The position numbers and the translations under genes are program-made. Of a DNA stretch of 35,134 nt, positions 206-35,039 are shown piece after piece (within the stretch, counting starts at the first letter, position 1; every line of letters begins with the position of its first letter). The notes beneath the pieces are model-generated. The model had not been told where the DNA came from. It ran no database searches and worked only from the letters and a program-made list of their open reading frames with translations. The stretch is from a virus: positions 1 through 35,134 of the IMG/VR virus record IMGVR_UViG_3300047667_000629; one strand, 5' to 3'.

Positions 206-270
206 CATTCGGATGCGATTCGTGTGCGATTCGAACGCCATTCAATGTCGATTCAAATTCATTTGATTGG
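206..270 (+). repeat. 11-bp phased ATTC array, left copy
   Basis: Five units of the form [C/G]ATTC[G/A]NNNN[C] begin exactly 11 bp apart, with ATTC at 207, 218, 229, 240 and 251. A sixth degenerate unit (ATTT at 261) is one base out of phase. The array lies between the left terminus and the end of the repressor gene and overlaps its last codons. The core at 229-243 (ATTCGAACGCCATTC) recurs in the middle and near the right end of the phage. The 11-bp phase puts every unit on nearly the same face of the helix, which suggests cooperative protein binding. Confidence 0.7.
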
Positions 271-805: not shown

Positions 806-1006
806 ATGAACAAAATTTCCATAGTTAGCGAATCTCTTCAGCACGGGGACCTGAGCTGGATCTCCAAGCAGACGACAATTCCATTCGATACAGTGCGCGC
901 AGTAATGGCTGGTAAAAGGAACTGGGACACCCCGAAAGGTCGCCGCATCAAGAAGGTCGCGGAGCTTTTAATAATGAGCCGCGAAGAGCTAAAAAAAGCA
1001 ATTTGA
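806..1006 (+). CDS. Ner-like HTH regulator
   Basis: A small basic protein of 66 residues. It is mostly helical with a likely helix-turn-helix around ISKQTTIPFDTVRAVMAGKRNW and a second helix pair in the C-terminal half. It is the first gene of the early operon, divergent from the repressor, which is the position of ner in Mu. There Ner limits early and repressor transcription. The stop overlaps the TTG start of the transposase gene (TTGA), implying translational coupling. Function is assigned from position and fold, as overall similarity to Ner is not evident by eye. Confidence 0.65.
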   Translation: MNKISIVSESLQHGDLSWISKQTTIPFDTVRAVMAGKRNWDTPKGRRIKKVAELLIMSREELKKAI

Positions 1007-2934
1007 TCTATCAGGACGACATACTGTATCTGCACTACGCAGACCTTGCTCCTGACCCCATCAGCGAAAGCGCCTACAAGCAAGGCAAGCGTCGCGGGAA
1101 CTTTCAAGTCCAAGGCCGTGGCGGCAATGGGCGCGAAGTTCTCATCGCCTATGAGTCACTGCCATCCAAATGGAAGGCAAAGCTCGCCGACAAGTACGGC
1201 GACCTCTACAGCTACTGCTCTGCGCAGATCATCAAGCCGCACCTGGTCTACTCAGACAAGGATGCTGAAACCATCAAGAACTTCATCACCTCCAAGGAGG
1301 AGCACCTTCCAGAAGAAGCGCAAGAAGCCTACCGCACCGCCTGCGCCTACCTCACACTGATGGCCATGAACAAGAGAGCCGCCCAGATCAAGAAGCTCGG
1401 CTTCCCTTCGAAGGGACAGCTCACGGACTCCATCCAGCGCTTGATCCAGGCCGAAGGAATCAAGCTACCATCCAACTACTCGAACCTCAAGCGAAAGCTC
1501 CGAGAATACGAAGAGAACGGAGCCACTGCCGTGATCTCTGGCAGATGGGGGAATTCGAACACCGAGAAGATCACAGAAGAGATCGAGAAGTGGATGGTGC
1601 TCGAAATGTGCCGCACACGCTTGAGTCCAGAGTCGGTTCACCAGCGCTACATGAAAGTGGCCAAGGATCTCGGCTTCAGGACTGACATCAGCGCCGAAGC
1701 ATTCAAGCACCGACTTGCTCAGCCTCACCTCTTCCAGCTCATCTCTCTGAAGCGATACGGCAAGAAGGACGTCAGAAGCAAAACAGGGCAGACCTTCAAG
1801 ATCGCGCCGCCAGTATATTCAAACGACTACTGGCAAGGAGATGGATCTGCCATTGATCTCGCCTTCAGAAATGAAGCAGGCAAGATCGGCATGGCCACCG
1901 TCTACATCGTAGTGGACGTGCTCACTGAGTCGATCATCGGCTGGTCGATCAACGAAGGAAAAAACAGAGAAGACTTCCAGCTTCAGCTCAAGGCATTCCG
2001 CCACGCGGTGAGAACCACAGGCTCCAAGCCTTACCAGTTGAAGTACGACAAACAGAAGGGCCACCTCACTGAGGAGGCGCAAAAGTTCTATGATTCACTT
2101 GCCACAGTCCACTTCCCGTCCAGAGCATACCGCTCTTCGAGTCGGAGAGTGGAGGGCATCTTCGGAAGACTCCAGCGCCAGATCCTGGCAGAGTACCCAT
2201 TCTGGACAGGGTTCGGACGCCACACCAGCAGCAAGCTCGCCAACTGGTACGACGCCGACAAGATGAACCGCAACCTCCACAACCTCCCGAACTACGAGGA
2301 GCTGTGCCAATTGTGGGAGGTTATCGTGAACGACTGGAACGCAGCAACGCACCCGAACAAGAAAGCATCCAGAGCCGAGTTCTACCAGTCGCGAAAGGAT
2401 CCAAAGGTTCCAGCAGTAGAGCTGCCAGAGATGGTGGAGATGTTCTTCAACGTGACCAAGCCAATGAAGTACCAGGCGAACGGCATCACGCTGACACGGA
2501 AGGGACACTCGACCACGTATGTGGTGTACAACGAGAAGGGACTGGTGGACTACAAGTTCCGCGAGAAGTACCTCAAGGCCGCGCTCCATGTCAAGTACGA
2601 CCCAGAATTTGAATATCCAGAGGTGGAGCTGTACGCTCCAACACCCAGCGGAGATATGCGCTTCGTCGCAACAGCACAGCCAGCCAGAGAGACCCACGAC
2701 GTGGTGAAGTACCTGGAGCCAGGCGAGCGCCAGTACATAGACGAAGAACTTCAGAACGAGGACGACTTCTACACGCACCTGGATACAAAGGCCAACGCTC
2801 TCGGATACGACGAGACAGAGGTGATGACATCCTGGCGCTCGAAGATCGGCCTCAGACCTACCAAGAAAAAACAAACAGTTGACGCCGCCACGGATACCCG
2901 CAGCGATGAAGACTTTCTCCTTGATCAATTATAA
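1003..2934 (+). CDS. MuA-type DDE transposase (A protein)
   Basis: Codes for 643 residues, close to Mu A (663). The N-terminal part (about 1-65) resembles the Mu-type DNA-binding domain (GREVLIAYESLPSKWKAKL), followed by helical end-binding regions to about 260. The RNase H-like core holds an apparent catalytic triad: D280 in YWQGDGSAI, D349 in LKYDKQKGH and E384 in SSRRVEGIFGRL. A Mu-type C-terminal beta-barrel region with TLTRKGHSTTYVVY follows, and the tail should contact MuB. The start is TTG at 1003, overlapping the Ner stop. It cuts and joins the phage ends during integration and replicative transposition. Confidence 0.95.
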   Translation: MIYQDDILYLHYADLAPDPISESAYKQGKRRGNFQVQGRGGNGREVLIAYESLPSKWKAKLADKYGDLYSYCSAQIIKPHLVYSDKDAETIKNFITSKEEHLPEEAQEAYRTACAYLTLMAMNKRAAQIKKLGFPSKGQLTDSIQRLIQAEGIKLPSNYSNLKRKLREYEENGATAVISGRWGNSNTEKITEEIEKWMVLEMCRTRLSPESVHQRYMKVAKDLGFRTDISAEAFKHRLAQPHLFQLISLKRYGKKDVRSKTGQTFKIAPPVYSNDYWQGDGSAIDLAFRNEAGKIGMATVYIVVDVLTESIIGWSINEGKNREDFQLQLKAFRHAVRTTGSKPYQLKYDKQKGHLTEEAQKFYDSLATVHFPSRAYRSSSRRVEGIFGRLQRQILAEYPFWTGFGRHTSSKLANWYDADKMNRNLHNLPNYEELCQLWEVIVNDWNAATHPNKKASRAEFYQSRKDPKVPAVELPEMVEMFFNVTKPMKYQANGITLTRKGHSTTYVVYNEKGLVDYKFREKYLKAALHVKYDPEFEYPEVELYAPTPSGDMRFVATAQPARETHDVVKYLEPGERQYIDEELQNEDDFYTHLDTKANALGYDETEVMTSWRSKIGLRPTKKKQTVDAATDTRSDEDFLLDQL

Positions 2935-2952: not shown

Positions 2953-3813
2953 ATGAATGCACCGCTAGAACAAATCAGAGAATTAACACTGGAGAAGATC
3001 CAGTCCACAGGACTCTCACAGCGAAGGTATGCCAAGCAGGCAGGCTGCGCAGCCTCCACTATCACCGCGCTAAAAAATCGCGAGTGGTCAAAGTTTGGTG
3101 ACGACATGATCCAGAAGCTGGCCATCGCCTGCGGATACAACTCGCTAAGCTGGAAGACCGCCGAGACCACCAACATGAGACTGGTCTCATCTATCTGCAA
3201 CCGCGCACAGAGCCAGTCCATCTCGATGGCCATCACCGACATCGCTGGACGAGGGAAGACTCAAGGGTTCAAGGAATACACCAAGAGCCACAGGAATGTC
3301 TTCCACCTGAACTGCGCCGCCCACTGGACGAATAAGCTCTTTATGGAGAAGCTACTCCAGGAGCTAGGAGTGGACGGCAGCGCCCACGCTACCAGTAAGA
3401 AGTGCGAGATCGCCATCCAGGCACTGGCCCGCGTAGAGAAGCCGCTCCTCATTATCGACGAGGCTGACAAGCTGCGCGACTCCTCGCTGCTCTTCTTCAT
3501 TGAGATATACAACAGACTCGACGGCTACTGTGGAGTGATCCTGTCAGGCCAGAAGAATCTGGAGAAGAACATCGACAAAGGCCGCAAGCGCGACAAGCGT
3601 GGCTATAACGAGATATACTCTCGCATTGGTCGCCGCTTCATTGAGCTGAAGGCTGTGAGCCTGTCAGACACGGAGGCCATCTGCAAAGCGAATGGAATCA
3701 TCGAGCCGCAGCACATCAATGAGATTTACAACGACAGCGAAGGAGATCTCCGCAGAGTGAAGCGAGCCATCGAGGTGCTCCAGACCAAACTCAACAAAGC
3801 CGTCCCAGTATGA
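2953..3813 (+). CDS. MuB-type transposition ATPase (target selector)
   Basis: Codes for 286 residues. An N-terminal helix-turn-helix (about 20-45, LSQRRYAKQAGCAASTITAL) precedes an AAA+ core. Walker A is DIAGRGKT ending near residue 103, and Walker B is LLIIDEAD with D169 and E170. Mu B uses the same layout: an HTH domain and an ATPase that forms filaments on target DNA, delivers it to MuA and stimulates strand transfer. The ATG follows an A-rich leader without a Shine-Dalgarno sequence. The next gene starts at the stop (ATGA overlap). Confidence 0.92.
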   Translation: MNAPLEQIRELTLEKIQSTGLSQRRYAKQAGCAASTITALKNREWSKFGDDMIQKLAIACGYNSLSWKTAETTNMRLVSSICNRAQSQSISMAITDIAGRGKTQGFKEYTKSHRNVFHLNCAAHWTNKLFMEKLLQELGVDGSAHATSKKCEIAIQALARVEKPLLIIDEADKLRDSSLLFFIEIYNRLDGYCGVILSGQKNLEKNIDKGRKRDKRGYNEIYSRIGRRFIELKAVSLSDTEAICKANGIIEPQHINEIYNDSEGDLRRVKRAIEVLQTKLNKAVPV

Positions 3814-11908: not shown

Positions 11909-12493
11909 CTAGGTTGTTTCAAAATCACTATAAAGCGGATCCACCTCTGCTGCTCCTGGCGCCTGCGCCTCGTTCCTGACTTCCATCTCTTGATCATCTC
12001 CCAGGTCGCTCTCGAATCCTTTCACTGCTGTGTTGTCAGAGATCAGACACTGGTACGCCTGGAGGTGTACCTTCCCGCCAGGGTGTGGCGTCGGCTCCTT
12101 CTGCTGATCGACGCGAGTCATCGCGCTGTGGTGCGTTCCTACACGTCCGTGAAGCAAGCGGTGGATCGACACCATCAGCTCGCCAAACTTCAAGGCGTCG
12201 CCCTGGTTCCAGCTCCCCTGATGAGTGTCGGCAATGTCTATGTAGTACAAGTGCGCCGTGATGGTGTAGTCGCAGATCTGGCCCAGGTCGCCCTTGTCCA
12301 TCATCTCGTTGGTGTTAAATTCCAAGTACACCGCAGGCGCTGGCACAGGATACTCTTCGTCTGCGCTGTAGGGCTGCTCCTCCCATAGATCCACCCACTT
12401 GATCTCTGGGATCGCAGCGATGGCGGTGGCCAGTTCTTTGTATGCTTCCAGCCAGTTCTGGCCCTCGTTAATCACTTCAATGTTCTCGCTCAT
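11909..12493 (-). CDS. Mu gp37-like head-tail or tail-terminator protein
   Basis: Codes for 194 residues. The order LEAYKELATAIAAIPEIKWVDLW, AVYLEFNT, YTITAHLYYIDIAD and FGELMVSIHRLLHG fits small phage proteins of the gp37/tail-terminator class, with alternating helices and strands and a variable loop. It is the last gene of the leftward head operon and overlaps the gpG-like gene by 4 nt, which also supports a head-tail completion role. The C-terminus VDPLYSDFET recurs in the left direct repeat. Assignment is by pattern and position. Confidence 0.6.
   Translation of the reverse strand: MSENIEVINEGQNWLEAYKELATAIAAIPEIKWVDLWEEQPYSADEEYPVPAPAVYLEFNTNEMMDKGDLGQICDYTITAHLYYIDIADTHQGSWNQGDALKFGELMVSIHRLLHGRVGTHHSAMTRVDQQKEPTPHPGGKVHLQAYQCLISDNTAVKGFESDLGDDQEMEVRNEAQAPGAAEVDPLYSDFETT
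11916..11945. repeat. Right direct repeat flanking the 890-bp islet
   Basis: Second copy of the 30-bp repeat found at 11026-11055. Here it is the functional 3' end of the gp37-like gene, encoding VDPLYSDFETT. The similarity to the left copy continues weakly upstream in the protein (EA preceding VDPLY), suggesting the left copy came from a related but diverged gene. Confidence 0.75.
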
Positions 12494-13056
12494 TTTTTAA
12501 AGATTTGCCGCTCCAGTTCCTTCACTTGCTTGAGGTACTCGCGGTCGATGGACTTCATTAAATCGGGCGAGGCGCCGATAAATTGACGTATCGGCAAATT
12601 CACCGATAACTGTCGGCTATGGCCCTTCACATCTGCCGCCTTTCTTCTTCCGCCTTTGATCTTTTTGCCCGCCCTTCTGTGTGCTTTGTACTTGTGCTCG
12701 CGTCTGCTGTGTGCTGGCACGTTCACCTTCTGCTCCAGCTCCAGCCCTTCGTTGTGTGCTTCAGCGTAGGGCACGTCCGTGCCTACCACCACACGGCGAC
12801 GGCTCGCTTCTGTCGTTCGGATACTCCGCTGGAGTCGTCCTGTCTTCTTCAGTATCGCTGCGCCCTTTCTTTTGTCGGGTGCCTTTCGCTTCTCCCACCT
12901 GTCCAGTCTTCCATTCATTGGGAAACCTTGCCGCCTGAAGTTGCCCTTGAAGAAGGCCACCGCCTTGGCGCTTGCCGACCTTGGCTGGTTCGCCATGATC
13001 TTCACTATCCCATTCACCAGGACGAGCTGCTGCTGCTTGTTCAGGACTCTGCTCAT
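12490..13056 (-). CDS. Mu gpG-like virion morphogenesis (tail completion) protein
   Basis: Codes for 188 residues. The pattern GRLDRWEKRKAPDKRKGAAIL, KKTGRLQRSIR and VVVGTDVPYAEAHNEG is diagnostic of the phage virion morphogenesis family (Mu gpG, P2 gpS). A highly basic insert (about 120-145) follows. The protein acts at head completion or head-tail joining. ATGA overlaps link it to the genes on both sides. The family usually has about 150 residues, so the basic insert accounts for the extra length. Confidence 0.85.
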   Translation of the reverse strand: MSRVLNKQQQLVLVNGIVKIMANQPRSASAKAVAFFKGNFRRQGFPMNGRLDRWEKRKAPDKRKGAAILKKTGRLQRSIRTTEASRRRVVVGTDVPYAEAHNEGLELEQKVNVPAHSRREHKYKAHRRAGKKIKGGRRKAADVKGHSRQLSVNLPIRQFIGASPDLMKSIDREYLKQVKELERQIFKK

Positions 13057-13283
13057 GGCTTCAGCTTTCGGTCTACAAATTTTTCGAACTTGATCGCCTC
13101 CTCGATGTTGGTGATCCGCTGCGCGCTGTCTTCTTCGGCCATCTTCACAAAGTGATAAGGCTCACACTCGTGGATCGCGAAGCCATTGTCCAGGAGAAAG
13201 TCCACGACCTCCACATGGTGGCCGTCGCTTATCTTCAGGCAGATCTCCCCAGTCTGCTCGTGTCTTGCTATCAGTACATTCAT
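13053..13283 (-). CDS. Small protein between gpG-like and portal/gpF genes, unknown
   Basis: Codes for 76 residues and overlaps both neighbours by 4 nt. It appears to have an alpha/beta fold (MNVLIARHEQTGEICLKI, VEVVDFLLDNGFAIHECEPYHF) with a charged C-terminal helix. It starts right behind a gene ending in a toxin-like domain. It could therefore be an immunity protein for that domain, although this is only a positional argument. Confidence 0.6.
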   Translation of the reverse strand: MNVLIARHEQTGEICLKISDGHHVEVVDFLLDNGFAIHECEPYHFVKMAEEDSAQRITNIEEAIKFEKFVDRKLKP

Positions 13284-15682
13284 CGCTTCAATAGTATCCC
13301 GTTTCTAACGGTGTCCATAAGTTCGGTCTCAGCCAAATCAAACCAGCGCCAGCCGCTCACTGTCATCGCTCCGTTCACATCTACCAGGGCGGCTCCGTTC
13401 TCGTAGTACTTCAAGTACCTGGTACTTTGCACGCTCGTCCAGACTTCGCTTGGTAGCGCCAGCACTTCGCTGGCCAGGTGTGCCTTGTCGCTTTCGCGAA
13501 AGGGTTCATCGTCGAGGCGCACGGCCAGACCATTGTGATCGGTGGCGGTGCGGTACTCTGCCGACTCCTCGAATGCTTTCGAGGGTGCGGTCTTCAGCCC
13601 TTTGGGATCTGCCAAGACCTTGGAGGCTGGCCTCATTCCATAGTTCCGAATGGCATCGAGTGCGGTGGGTGCCTGTGGCAGCACTTGGTAGTATGGGTGC
13701 GCGTTGGTGTACACGATCCCAGTCTTCCCGACATTGGCCTGGAAGGCTGGCGGCACATCTATCGAAGGGTTCGAAGTGGTCACTCGACTGCTGTCGCTGG
13801 TGCTGGTGGCATCGCATCGGCAGCCGTGGCCCAGTGGTGGGTAGTTCTTATCCCACCAGGCGTCTCCGATTGGTTTCACCACTCCGTCCAGGAGGCTGTG
13901 CTCGTTTCTCACTCGTGCGTCTCCTGCCGTTACATATTCCAGGAAGGGAAAGAGATCAGCGTCGGCCTCGTATCGGTTCCACTGTGCGCCCATCTGGCCG
14001 CTGGCCACTGCGTTGTTCCGCTCTGTCTCCAGCCATGTCACGTTGTGGATCTTTGCCACCTTCTCGGCTTCCAGCTTGAAGTCGGCGAAGGATCTCACTC
14101 TGCCCTGGTCATCCACCAGCAGCTCGCTCATCTCCTTCATTTGCGTGTATGTCTTGGCAGAGCTGAACGCGTAGAGATTGTCGCGCATTCGCGAGGCCAG
14201 CAGGTTGTCTGCCGCATTGTAGTCGATGCCTCCAAAGTCGAAAGCTCCCGCAGCTCCACCATAAAGGTCGTCGCCTATGGATGTGGCCAGCGCAGCGTCG
14301 AGCTGGTTGGCGTCCACCTTCCCGTCGAAGATCTCACGGATCACTCGCTCGGCATCACCACCACCGATGGCGGCAATGCTTACACCCGCATGACTCGGCT
14401 CTCCATAGAGCGCTCGCATACGGGCATTAAACTTTCCCAGCCCGCCTCCATTTGCTTCTTCAGTGAACTCTCCAGGAAGGCGCCGCAGCTTGGTGATGGG
14501 TAGACCCGTGCGTCGAGCCACTTCTTCTGGTTCAAATTCGTAGTACTGGCTGAGATCTTTCACGGCTTCGATCAGCTCCTTCGCGGATAGATCCTGGAAG
14601 TCGTCCCAAGCAAACGAGAGACCCTTCAGCGGGTAGCCCATTTGCACCAGGCGCGGCATCAGATCCTCGTTGATGAGATAGTGCAGCATCATCTTGTCCA
14701 TGTCGTGGATCGCGTCACTCACCTCGGCCATCACCTTCAGGCTGCCATAGGTTCCAGTCCCGTCCTTCTCTGTGGTGCCGTTCTCACCTACCAGCAGGCC
14801 CGTGATATTGCTCTGGAACATCTTGATGAGAGACTCAAATAGATCCTTTGATCCTGCCGTATTGCTAGGCTCGAAGATCTTCAGCTCCTCGCCCTCCTTG
14901 ATGATCGCATAATTGGAGCTAAGCATATTTTTCATAAGCTCATTCAACTGTCTCAGGCGTGTCTTGTCGGCGCCCTTGTGCATCAGCACCCGTGGGGGTG
15001 TGCCAAATTTGTGAACGTAGTCCACCGCGATGGCTTGGATGAAGCTCATATAAATAAAAGGCACCGAGACCTTCATCAGCAGGCCGAAGTCGTCAGTATC
15101 CCCTGCTTGTAGGTAGTACGGCTCCAGTAATGGATCCGTGTAGTCCCATCCATTCAGGTCGCCTGTGTACTTGGTGACGAACTTCTTCCAGTAGTTTACA
15201 TTCCCTTCGGGCATCAATGTGAGCTTCGAGATCTCTCGATCCTTCAGCTCCGTGATCTCAATCAGTTGCGGCCCTCTGAAGATAGAGGTCATCGACATAC
15301 CCAGGAAGCTGGTGAACCACTTGGACTCCATCAGCTTGGTGGCTTCTTGGTTGTGTACTCCATCGGCGCCCACCAGTTTGAAGCGGCTGCGCTTGACGCG
15401 GCTCATCCTCTTCTGTATGCCTCGCGTCACGGTGTCGTCTAACATCATGCGGTCGTATATCCGTGACATCAGCACACGAGTCGGCTCGATACTGCGCAGT
15501 CCATTCACTGCTCTCAGCCAGTCGTCCACCTCCTGCCTGGAGATGGGTGTCATCCTGTTGTCCACTTGCTCGCTCAGCGGCGCGTCTGACTTCGCGGCCA
15601 TCATCACATTCAGCTCCTGCTCGCTGAAGTTTCTCGTGGCGAATCCTTTTAAGGTATTTTTAAGCGTTGTCTTGATTCCCAT
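13280..15682 (-). CDS. Portal (Mu gp29, DUF935) fused to gpF head protein with toxin-like tail
   Basis: Codes for 800 residues, against about 510 for Mu gp29 alone. Residues about 1-430 match the DUF935 portal family (MTPISRQEVDDWLRAVNGLR, MYDRMMLDD-like helix, SNITGLLVGENGT, PLKGLSFAWDD). Residues about 495-640 match the Mu F minor head protein (RVRNEHSLLDGVVKPIGDAWW, YPPLGHGCRCDA). Residues about 705-800 resemble a phage BECR-fold nuclease domain (HLASEVLALPSEVWTSVQST, YENGAALVDVNGAMTVSGW). The portal forms the DNA gate; the fused tail could be a polymorphic effector released with the DNA. The fusion is seen directly; the nuclease call is tentative. Confidence 0.85.
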   Translation of the reverse strand: MGIKTTLKNTLKGFATRNFSEQELNVMMAAKSDAPLSEQVDNRMTPISRQEVDDWLRAVNGLRSIEPTRVLMSRIYDRMMLDDTVTRGIQKRMSRVKRSRFKLVGADGVHNQEATKLMESKWFTSFLGMSMTSIFRGPQLIEITELKDREISKLTLMPEGNVNYWKKFVTKYTGDLNGWDYTDPLLEPYYLQAGDTDDFGLLMKVSVPFIYMSFIQAIAVDYVHKFGTPPRVLMHKGADKTRLRQLNELMKNMLSSNYAIIKEGEELKIFEPSNTAGSKDLFESLIKMFQSNITGLLVGENGTTEKDGTGTYGSLKVMAEVSDAIHDMDKMMLHYLINEDLMPRLVQMGYPLKGLSFAWDDFQDLSAKELIEAVKDLSQYYEFEPEEVARRTGLPITKLRRLPGEFTEEANGGGLGKFNARMRALYGEPSHAGVSIAAIGGGDAERVIREIFDGKVDANQLDAALATSIGDDLYGGAAGAFDFGGIDYNAADNLLASRMRDNLYAFSSAKTYTQMKEMSELLVDDQGRVRSFADFKLEAEKVAKIHNVTWLETERNNAVASGQMGAQWNRYEADADLFPFLEYVTAGDARVRNEHSLLDGVVKPIGDAWWDKNYPPLGHGCRCDATSTSDSSRVTTSNPSIDVPPAFQANVGKTGIVYTNAHPYYQVLPQAPTALDAIRNYGMRPASKVLADPKGLKTAPSKAFEESAEYRTATDHNGLAVRLDDEPFRESDKAHLASEVLALPSEVWTSVQSTRYLKYYENGAALVDVNGAMTVSGWRWFDLAETELMDTVRNGILLKR

Positions 15683-15710
15683 AGGTATGTATCGTTTTAA
15701 CTAGATCGTC

Positions 15711-15750
15711 GATTCTCGCGCAATTTGAACGGTATTCGAACGGCATTCTC
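15711..15750 (+). repeat. 11-bp phased ATTC array, internal copy
   Basis: ATTC or ATTT elements begin at 15712, 15723, 15734 and 15745, exactly 11 bp apart. The core 15734-15748 (ATTCGAACGGCATTC) differs from the left core at one base. It lies in the 76-bp gap between the portal and DUF1320 genes of the leftward operon. Read on the minus strand it includes GAATGCCGTTC and GAATACCGTTC in tandem. Confidence 0.7.
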
Positions 15751-15758
15751 TTGCCCTC

Positions 15759-16229
15759 CTATACCTTGAAGTTTGTCACCTTGCCATCACCTCCCCAGAT
15801 CGGCTCGTCCGTTCTGAGGGTATCCGTGGCGGTAATGGGTGGCAGACTGGGGTGAATAGTATTCTCGGCGATGCCGTCCAGCCAGTCCATCACTTCGTTG
15901 TAGTCGTCTTTCACTTGCTCTGATACGTTGCGAGGGTTCACCGAGCGCCACAGTCGATACCGCACCAGGTTGCAGAGGTACTCCTTGATCAGCTCCTTGT
16001 CGCCATAAGTGCTGGCGGTGTTAAAGATCACAGCGCTGTCGAAGCGGTTGCTCAAGTAGCTGCTCATCTTGGAGATGGAGCTGGCCTCTGCCTTCTCCTT
16101 GCGAGCCTGCACGGCTGCGATCTCCTCGCTCGTGCTTTCGCCTGTCGTGTTGTCCTGGCTTATGATCGCCAGGAACTGCGGCTGGATGTCAGTCGTGAGG
16201 TCTTCTTCTGTGATGAATTGATAAGGCAT
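15759..16229 (-). CDS. Mu gp36-like protein (DUF1320)
   Basis: Codes for 156 residues. FITEEDLTTDIQPQFLAIIS at the N-terminus, then SSYLSNRFDS and KEYLCNLVRYRLWRSVNPRNVSEQVKDDYNEVMDWLDGIAEN match the DUF1320 family. These small adaptor proteins join head and tail in Mu-like phages. It sits 2 nt after the terminase gene. Confidence 0.88.
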   Translation of the reverse strand: MPYQFITEEDLTTDIQPQFLAIISQDNTTGESTSEEIAAVQARKEKAEASSISKMSSYLSNRFDSAVIFNTASTYGDKELIKEYLCNLVRYRLWRSVNPRNVSEQVKDDYNEVMDWLDGIAENTIHPSLPPITATDTLRTDEPIWGGDGKVTNFKV

Positions 16230-17773: not shown

Positions 17774-18021
17774 TTTGTTAGATTCGTTTGGCTGCCTCTC
17801 GCCAGCTTTCTCATCTTCACCTCGAAGTTCTTCTTCCGCATATTAAAGGAGAGATCCTTCACTTGGTAGATCGTGCCGTGCTTGTTCATCCCGATTTGCT
17901 TCAGGTAGTATGGTGCGCACTTGTCTAGGATGGCCACGGCCTTCTCCATGCGTCGGTTGTATCTCCAGGCGGAGACTCCTCTCACCATCTTGTTCTTCTT
18001 CCAGATCTGTATCAATCCCAT
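17767..18021 (-). CDS. Small basic packaging-module protein, unknown
   Basis: Codes for 84 residues, strongly basic (many Lys and Arg), helical, with VRGVSAWRYNRRMEKAVAILDK and a C-terminal KVKMRKLARGSQ-like run. Being placed between small and large terminase genes suggests a DNA-packaging or DNA-binding role. The family is not recognised. Confidence 0.65.
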   Translation of the reverse strand: MGLIQIWKKNKMVRGVSAWRYNRRMEKAVAILDKCAPYYLKQIGMNKHGTIYQVKDLSFNMRKKNFEVKMRKLARGSQTNLTKC

Positions 18022-18528
18022 TTACTCGTGCAGTTTTGCAATGTTATTTATGTGCGACTCCTGGAAGTCCAGAAGCTGGAGGTAGATCTTCGGGCAGTCC
18101 TTTTGCATACTGTCGAAGATGCTCTCCATCACTTTGATGTAGGTGCTGAGCGGGATCTTGTTCTCCTTCTCTGCGTTGTCCAGTGCCTTGTTGATCTTGG
18201 AGATCTCGTCGCTCAGGCGCACCTTGTCGCGGTCGCGCTCGGCTGCTCGTTCCAGGCGCTGCTCTTCATCTTCTCCTGCTCTCTTGGCTGGCTCCGTCTC
18301 TAGGAGCTGGCGCTTGTCCACCAGTGTCTGCAACAGTGTGCGGTACGAACGGATGAGCGAGTCGCCTGCTGTGATCTTGGCGGTGCGTCTCTCCTTCCAG
18401 TTCCCGTCGGCCACCCATTTGCCCAGTGTGTTTTCGCTCAGCGAGAGCTTCGCTGCGATCTCCTTGGCTGTCTTGCCTTGCTCGATGTACATCACCGCCG
18501 CCAGTTTGCGCTCTTGATCCTTTGCCAT
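18022..18528 (-). CDS. Terminase small subunit (HTH), first gene of the leftward operon
   Basis: Codes for 168 residues from the ATG at 18528. An HTH near the N-terminus (QGKTAKEIAAKLSLSENTLGKWVADGNW) is the DNA-recognition domain of many small terminases. A long charged coiled coil follows (about 70-130) and a C-terminal helical region for oligomerisation. It selects phage DNA for packaging. A longer frame to 18867 exists but would cover the divergent late promoter and protease start, so the internal ATG is preferred. Confidence 0.82.
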   Translation of the reverse strand: MAKDQERKLAAVMYIEQGKTAKEIAAKLSLSENTLGKWVADGNWKERRTAKITAGDSLIRSYRTLLQTLVDKRQLLETEPAKRAGEDEEQRLERAAERDRDKVRLSDEISKINKALDNAEKENKIPLSTYIKVMESIFDSMQKDCPKIYLQLLDFQESHINNIAKLHE

Positions 18529-31564: not shown

Positions 31565-32491
31565 ATGGCTATACTAGGAACAGCAAACACACTGCCCACA
31601 GAGGTGGCTTCGTTAAATGCTACTTTTTACCAAGACGTTGCTTACTATGGCTTCGATAGGAATAAATTCGACTTTTTTAAACCCATCGGCGGCGCTGCGG
31701 TGAAGCCTGTCGCGATCTTGTTTCATGGTGGTGGGTTCATTTCTGGAGATAAGTCTGCTTTCTGGCAGTTTTCGGAGCAAAGGACTTTTTTAACTGCTTT
31801 AATAAACGCAGATATAGCGGTCTGCACGGTTAATTATAGATTCATTGCCACCGATAACTCCGAGACACTTGGTATAAAGAAGTGTATGCGCGACGGCGCT
31901 AATGCAGTCCAGCGAATCCTCTACAATTCGCAAGAGCTGGGAATCGACAAGACTAAGCTCGGTCTCCACGGTGACAGTGCTGGCGGCTCCATTTGTATGT
32001 TCTTGTCAGGCCCAGAGCTTGGCATTCCGACCGCTTCAAATTACAAGGTCGAGAGCTGCCGACCTATTGCTGTGGCAACGTATCGACCGCAGACTCTGGA
32101 CATCCCTAGATGGGAAAGATATTTTAGCTCTCTGACCTTCCAGGGTATTCTCGAAGCCTCCGCCGAGACAAAAGAACGCTGCTATCATTTTTTTGGACTT
32201 CCAGCTCCCACGACTCCCGACGCGGAAGACTTTGAGACTAGAAAAATATACAATTATGCGCGCCGCATGGATTTGGTAAAGAACGCCGACCCTTCTGGGA
32301 TCTCTTTGCATTTGTCAAACTATGACGCCTCTACCGATCCAGTCACTTTTGGGACGCTTATCCACCACCCTAACTACGCGAATGCATATAAAGAAAAATG
32401 GGACGCTTTGGGAGTGTCGTGTGACTTTTACACGGCAGACCCTCCAGCAGAGTCTGCCGCCTCATTTTTGATTCGCATCCTTAACGCTTAA
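31565..32491 (+). CDS. Alpha/beta-hydrolase (esterase-like) in the fibre cluster
   Basis: Codes for 308 residues. HGGG at 54-57 (ILFHGGGFISGDK) forms the oxyanion hole and GDSAGG at 136-141 holds the nucleophile S138. These are signatures of the hormone-sensitive-lipase/acetylesterase family. D254 is a possible acid. The usual His after it is not obvious; H267 and H268 are nearer than normal, and the C-terminal strand has none. It has no signal peptide and lies between two structural genes, so it may be a virion component that removes acyl groups from surface polysaccharide. The gene is visibly AT-richer than its neighbours. Confidence 0.8.
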   Translation: MAILGTANTLPTEVASLNATFYQDVAYYGFDRNKFDFFKPIGGAAVKPVAILFHGGGFISGDKSAFWQFSEQRTFLTALINADIAVCTVNYRFIATDNSETLGIKKCMRDGANAVQRILYNSQELGIDKTKLGLHGDSAGGSICMFLSGPELGIPTASNYKVESCRPIAVATYRPQTLDIPRWERYFSSLTFQGILEASAETKERCYHFFGLPAPTTPDAEDFETRKIYNYARRMDLVKNADPSGISLHLSNYDASTDPVTFGTLIHHPNYANAYKEKWDALGVSCDFYTADPPAESAASFLIRILNA

Positions 32492-34784: not shown

Positions 34785-34833
34785 ATTTAAACATCATTCA
34801 AATGGCAAACGAAAAGGATTCAAACAGCATTCA
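34785..34833 (+). repeat. 11-bp phased ATTC array, right copy
   Basis: ATTT or ATTC elements begin at 34785, 34796, 34818 and 34829; the position at 34807 is occupied by a degenerate AAAC. All are in 11-bp phase. The core 34818-34832 (ATTCAAACAGCATTC) matches the left and internal cores at 12 to 13 of 15 positions and keeps the same orientation. The array overlaps the start of the last small gene. Confidence 0.6.
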
Positions 34834-34969
34834 ATTGGAAGGTTATCGCGAGCGTCTGACAGCTCGCTTTCGTCAGGTTCTTTGCACTACTTTAGCGCGA
34901 GCAGAGAGAGCAGAACGAGAGAGAGATCAGCTCAAGCGTCAGCTCTTGACTGAAGGAGTGGAAATCTAG
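34802..34969 (+). CDS. Small charged helical protein at the right end
   Basis: Codes for 55 residues. The C-terminal two-thirds is a long Arg/Glu-rich helix (LEGYRERLTARFRQVLCTTL, RAERAERERDQLKRQL). Its ATG lies within the phased ATTC array. It could be a real late gene or a chance frame; the regular charged helix favours a real one. Confidence 0.5.
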   Translation: MANEKDSNSIQLEGYRERLTARFRQVLCTTLARAERAERERDQLKRQLLTEGVEI

Positions 34970-35001: not shown

Positions 35002-35039
35002 TTGTGCTTTTGGTTTTAAAAAATTGTTCCTTTGGTTTT
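35002..35039 (-). repeat. Right-end transposase sites (R2 and R1 candidates)
   Basis: TTGTGCTTTTGGTTTT (35002-35017) and TTGTTCCTTTGGTTTT (35024-35039) are 22 bp apart, the length of a MuA binding site. Both are the inverse of the left-end motif AAAACCAAAGGCACAA. Two adjacent sites at the right end fit the R1-R2 arrangement of Mu. Confidence 0.7.

Follow-up and report, generated by a model that had tools for sequence, protein, structure and literature searches.

Arrays of an 11-bp phased near-palindrome dispersed through Mu-like phages of Bacteroidota, with a tentative role in prophage folding

Between the genes for a portal-MuF fusion and the head-tail adaptor gp36, the phage genome contained in the window, i.e. 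the whole stretch of 35,134 nucleotides analysed here, has a gap of 76 bp (15683-15758) holding a short phased array, whose core recurs near both phage ends. This locus raises the question of whether such an array is a peculiarity of one genome or a copy of a more general element and, in the latter case, what this element could do in a transposable phage. As shown below, the phage carries three copies, the central array among them, of an element dispersed through transposable phages of Bacteroidota.

The central array and its terminal counterparts

The carrier is a Mu-like transposable phage, in which MuA (with an rve domain), MuB, the Mu portal/F protein and gp36 are all present, together with a terminase and a Clp-like protease. 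Its ends probably lie at about 82 and 35049, as judged from inverted terminal sites (Table 1). As described in the sequence-only reading, the four elements of the central array are spaced by exactly 11 bp (ATTC at 15712, ATTT at 15723, ATTC at 15734 and 15745), and the 15-bp core at 15734-15748 matches 229-243 at 14 of 15 positions and 34818-34832 at 13 of 15, all on the + strand. While this common orientation is real, it carries little information because the unit is a near-palindrome; likewise, the 'centre' is, relative to the probable ends, some 45% along the phage. Of the four units of this array, two are full RTTYRAAY and two are halves, and it is the weakest of the three arrays in the window.

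Table 1. Coordinates of arrays and associated features in the window phage, and array positions in other phages
Feature	Position	Strand	Remark
Central array, ATTCTCGCGCA ATTTGAACGGT ATTCGAACGGC ATTCTCTTGCC	15712..15755		directly downstream of gp36 stop
Left-end array	207..261		five ATTC units, 11 bp; ~125 bp inside the probable left end
Right-end array	34785..34839		units at 34785, 34796, 34807 (poor), 34818, 34829
MuA-like transposase	1003..2934	+	
MuB-like AAA ATPase, N-terminal HTH	2953..3813	+	
gpG/neck protein	12490..13056	-	no array at its stop codon (gene-anchored matrix scan)
Portal-MuF-like fusion	13280..15682	-	start adjoins central array
gp36 head-tail adaptor	15759..16229	-	end adjoins central array
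Left terminal site, AAAACCAAAGGCACAA	92..107	+	probable transposase site, from inverted match to right end and sequence reading
Right terminal sites, TTGTGCTTTTGGTTTT, TTGTTCCTTTGGTTTT	35002..35039	-	22 bp apart; end near CGCGATTATA (35049)
Hankyphage p00 arrays	141/5253/21136/27405/42661		
Peternella arrays	2594/8428/14852/20683/30771/36400/39574		
TCUEAP3 arrays	158/734/6642/11490/21232/32687		

According to several null models, the three arrays of the window phage are unlikely to have arisen by chance. The pattern ATTCN7ATTCN7ATT, with at most one mismatch, occurs six times against 0.54 expected, a count reached in 0/100 shuffles, so that the phased clusters stood up to the shuffling check that had been called for. 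With a matrix derived from the left array only, the centre scores 23.7 bits and the right array 23.0-25.6 bits; while none of 200 Markov-4 simulations reached 23.0 bits, 3/300 column-scrambled matrices also attained the 23.7 of the centre. When a matrix from other phages, i.e. the family matrix trained without the window, was applied, the three best matches were the right (22.3), left (18.2) and central (13.1) arrays, the next one scoring 8.1, to be compared with a 95% level of 10.7 and a maximum of 17.1 over 200 simulations. There is a single close relative, a metagenome contig of 98% identity, and its copy of the central array shows no change.

The repeat unit and its recurrence

The left-end array of hankyphage p00, ATTTGAAC-CTT-GTTTGAAC-GCC-GTTCAAAT, located ~141 bp from the left end, led to the unit being recognised as an 8-bp near-palindrome with a 3-bp spacer. 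Thus, ATTC is not the defining element that it had first been taken for; the actual unit is RTTYRAAY followed by RSY, amounting to 11 bp, and arrays comprise about three or more units. Until then, strict ATTC patterns were misleading: a scan of viral contigs for five units yielded 97 stretches, mostly simple tandem repeats and set aside as such, with one in a contig bearing MuA- and MuB-like genes, and four ATTY units were found in 0/26 related records. In that Mu-like contig (L095:6402-6562), a long 11-bp array of the CATTCATCATC type lies ~1.1 kb upstream of the MuA-like gene. Near the right end of Porphyromonas phage 015a (L006:33106-33145), ATTT/ATTC/ATTT follow each other at 11 bp, below the matrix threshold.

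Across arrays, the TT..AA and R..Y columns are near-invariant, a change from TTTAAA to TTCGAA within units preserves the palindrome, and the RSY spacer is conserved though it was no selection criterion. Because RSY separates the palindromes, a flexible pyrimidine-purine step comes back to the same face at 11-bp intervals, with G/C in between, and the A/T profile of 143 arrays alternates with an 11-bp period over about 33-45 bp, more weakly in the central array of the window. A count over 126 loci, made up of the window, related phages and two phages that do not transpose, gave 95 three-unit arrays with at least 21/24 matches at an 11-bp period, against 1 to 7 when seven other periods were used. 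Other palindromic motifs gave neither a period-11 peak nor enrichment; AAATTT, also bendable, was not enriched.

The period was then assessed in a hold-out set of 78 viral loci selected by MuA similarity alone, the matrix being trained on other loci. At 20 bits or more, 79 arrays were found at period 11 and none at each of periods 8, 9, 10, 12, 13, 14 and 15; 58 of the 78 loci had at least one array and 20 had none at 20 bits. L390, on the same contig as training locus L320, was excluded, L336-L338 and L382 were kept although their MuA is 93-97% like that of training phage p00, and L365, L388 and L404, in which the MuA start is cut off, entered the period test and are absent from the position list. 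Relative to the MuA start, positions recur at the left end, at +278 to +296 (inside MuA), at about +2925 to +3130 (3' end of MuB) and at +8.2 to +9.8 kb. The suggestion that arrays at the ends and inside characterise related phages was upheld as a phylogenetically widespread, non-chance feature.

Carriers and places along the genome

The arrays recur in many Bacteroidota Mu-like phages and are concentrated in prophages, not in their hosts. In 2.9 million viral contigs, one exact three-unit pattern occurs as 9 stretches in 8 contigs, with MuA or MuB in five of these, Mu-like head genes in two and neither in one. A four-unit pattern gave 16 stretches, 11 of which read as plain or nearly plain tandem repeats; the five with varied spacers comprise four in Mu-like contigs and one (L324:9607-9650) in a contig of P2-like appearance, outside the Mu-like group. 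Over 14 host genomes, with up to two mismatches, a hand count placed 17/35 clusters in Mu-like prophages, which represent ~1% of the sequence; a reversed control pattern produced 12 hits. In phage Mu, four arrays score at least 16 bits, and in SuMu six; the motif is the same in phages with MuA proteins about 27% identical. In Mu, a 29-bit array, ATTTAATTAACGTTTAAACAAAATTTAATTACG, lies at the A-B gene junction (L327:3314-3346). Arrays of 16 bits are absent from lambda, P2, crAss001 (50 kb), B40-8 and three non-transposing Flavobacterium records. The matrix scan also gave none for D3112 and for one Klebsiella and three Porphyromonas Mu-like phages; such array-less Mu-like phages count against a universal rule.

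Array-bearing genomes hold 2 to 8 arrays, often at one or both ends. The end-centre-end triplet of the window is thus not the rule, most relatives having 4-8 arrays over the genome. Over 13 genomes, each with four arrays or more and one of them Mu, arrays are more evenly spaced than at random (mean CV 0.41 vs 0.74), keeping in mind that relatives are not independent; this set leaves aside the window (3 arrays), G023 (3), G024 (2), fF4 (2), SuMu (6, scanned later) and BX-TP2, a near copy of p00. With respect to genes, arrays were found at the stop codon of gpG in 25/61 Bacteroidota loci, of gp36 in 6/87, of terL in 2/93 and of the tail completion gene in 0/52, where a match at any of four control periods occurs in 2, 2, 0 and 0 loci, respectively. 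The central array of the window occupies the gp36-stop place, the gpG stop being the commonest place in relatives. While some arrays are intergenic, many lie inside coding sequence and, for this reason, the plain operator role that had also been considered is unlikely.

Candidate functions

The comparison with the strong gyrase site (SGS) of Mu, also put forward from the sequence, gained in relevance since the gpG stop corresponds to the neighbourhood of this site. In the Mu record, the gyrase cut is annotated at 17879-17880, 20 bp after gene G, and the right arm of the SGS carries TTTTAAAA, TTTTAAAC and ATTTAACG, at distances of about 21 and 12 bp, as phased TTTAAA-like steps with G/C between; a matrix match in SuMu, at 18376, falls in the G-I gap, 200 bp from the midpoint. 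The strict 11-bp matrix missed the SGS of Mu itself, and 15 non-Bacteroidota loci with a located G gave two arrays, neither in the gap after G. According to a Topo-Seq study, the GyrA C-terminal domains were proposed to recognise phased bending signals, 35-52 bp being wrapped (PMC6379681), and a review describes how the right-arm repeat motifs of Mu bend DNA onto the GyrA pinwheel (PMC10052514); the same phasing is discussed in a 2025 preprint (PMC12393610). Taken together, the Mu cut near G, the phased arm, this work on GyrA bending and the SuMu array make architectural sites working like an arm of the SGS the most likely, if still tentative, reading of the arrays.

Following this gyrase reading, the GyrA pinwheel of host gyrase would wrap the phased, bendable DNA of the arrays, which would become fixed points of the supercoiled prophage and divide it into loops of a few kb; they would also align the phage ends for transposition and perhaps set a self-immune phage domain, the link to self-immunity drawing on PMC2837660 and PMC7350765. 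For the window phage, this would make the gp36-portal site the inner anchor, with the left- and right-end arrays as outer anchors. By way of comparison, self-insertions in phage Ab30 were read as its genome folding into four loops (PMC5977238). That a single motif occurs in hosts belonging to different classes would suit an enzyme conserved among hosts. The restriction to period 11, the conserved spacer, the fixed places and the even spacing are likewise in favour of the gyrase reading. Against this, the near-fixed columns look like direct protein recognition and AAATTT lacks enrichment, several arrays per genome contrast with one SGS in Mu, the window has no array at its gpG stop, some Mu-like phages are array-less and related phages are not independent samples. 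The likeness to the Mu SGS resides in the place just downstream of gene G, the phased TTTAAA-like steps and the SuMu array in the same gap, whereas the arrays differ in being several per genome, strictly phased at 11 bp, made of palindromic units and present at both ends, with a gyrase role that would apply by analogy. BIME/REP elements are dispersed, palindromic and, in E. coli, gyrase targets (PMC6379681), but the arrays have another sequence and are concentrated in prophages rather than being chromosomal. As for the Mu transposition enhancer and MuA end sites, they too act in cis in a transposable phage, with one located near the left end; the terminal inverted sites of the window differ from the arrays in sequence, however, and the arrays also occur far inside.

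Alternatively, the arrays could be the sites of one dedicated DNA-binding protein, of phage or host, binding as a dimer to each 8-bp palindrome, spreading along the 11-bp phase and thereby bridging or marking the arrays. Since the base pattern is strict, AAATTT arrays are lacking and genomes have several copies, this is nearly as likely as gyrase, though likewise short of an even chance. The near-invariant columns, the adjacency of several units and the survival of the palindrome through the TTTAAA to TTCGAA change are in its favour, as is the presence of a small HTH-like protein and MuB among the proteins common to all 41 tested loci. Conversely, the motif is kept across phages with highly divergent MuA, arrays are few in host chromosomes, and a co-occurrence search (34 loci with arrays and 7 without) tied no family convincingly to them; as its top matches resemble spurious ORFs, this search was uninformative as to a binder. 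Ribbon-helix-helix (RHH) proteins spread on plasmid centromeres, as ParR does on the 11-bp repeats of R1 parC. Clustered 11-bp repeats are common to parC and the arrays, but the latter are dispersed and short and no par operon was seen; among the subset of ORFs compared, 10 window proteins against PHROGs and 10 against Pfam gave no RHH or ParM match.

An action of the arrays on the MuB-like ATPase, nucleating or blocking it, as cis elements of genome immunity against self-insertion, is rather improbable. Their distribution along the entire genome, at intervals of a few kb, would suit such a role, as would the proposal that specific Mu sequences assist genome immunity in Mu (PMC2837660), which is said to be mostly independent of MuB (PMC7350765). 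On the other hand, the MuB of Mu binds nonspecifically (PMC5977238), and the MuB-bearing phages of Porphyromonas have no arrays, any more than D3112 or the Klebsiella phage. Far less probable still are RNA hairpins acting as terminator or processing signal: while 8-bp units and 3-nt spacers would yield triloop stems from adjacent palindromes and stop codons are a frequent array site, neighbouring units show no clear pairing preference, with 91 Watson-Crick cases against 99 others for positions 1/8 and an odds ratio of 1.5 for positions 8/1, and many arrays are located within genes or else outside them, at the left end. A chance or coding artefact can practically be dismissed: the MuA-internal arrays do encode a conserved peptide, FEYxLNGVQT, but the excess is confined to period 11, when 72 MuA genes were shuffled synonymously, the 19 arrays observed in them dropped to a mean of 0.4, and the hold-out result contradicts it.

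No account of these arrays was found in the literature covered, which included repeat-related passages of the hankyphage paper (PMC12135933), subscription papers such as the 2006 SGS dissection being outside its scope. What may emerge, with some reservation, is a previously undescribed class of dispersed loop anchors, in which palindrome arrays phased at 11 bp, located at both ends and at intervals of a few kb inside, would be bound by one conserved factor, fold the prophage into a multi-loop domain, pair its ends and confer immunity to self-insertion. This bears on how Mu-like phages outside E. coli pair ends that are 35-45 kb apart, as well as on the basis of Mu genome immunity once MuB is excluded. 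A defined, conserved element also provides an experimental address, which can be deleted, moved or used as a pull-down target in cultured Bacteroides hankyphage lysogens, besides being a sequence signature for transposable phages.

Two further features of the window concern its genes. In the repressor gene (479-514), GTTGGGGTGACA forms three perfect 12-bp copies coding for VTPT repeats, and 12-bp triple repeats of other sequence occur in the repressor/left-end region of Peternella, Porphyromonas phage 015a, p00 and contigs G008, G015, G023 and G026; considered as a candidate shared element, these triple repeats were set apart. The product of the tail-end gene at 31565-32491 is presumably alpha/beta hydrolase-like, as judged by eye from its HGGG and GDSAGG motifs.
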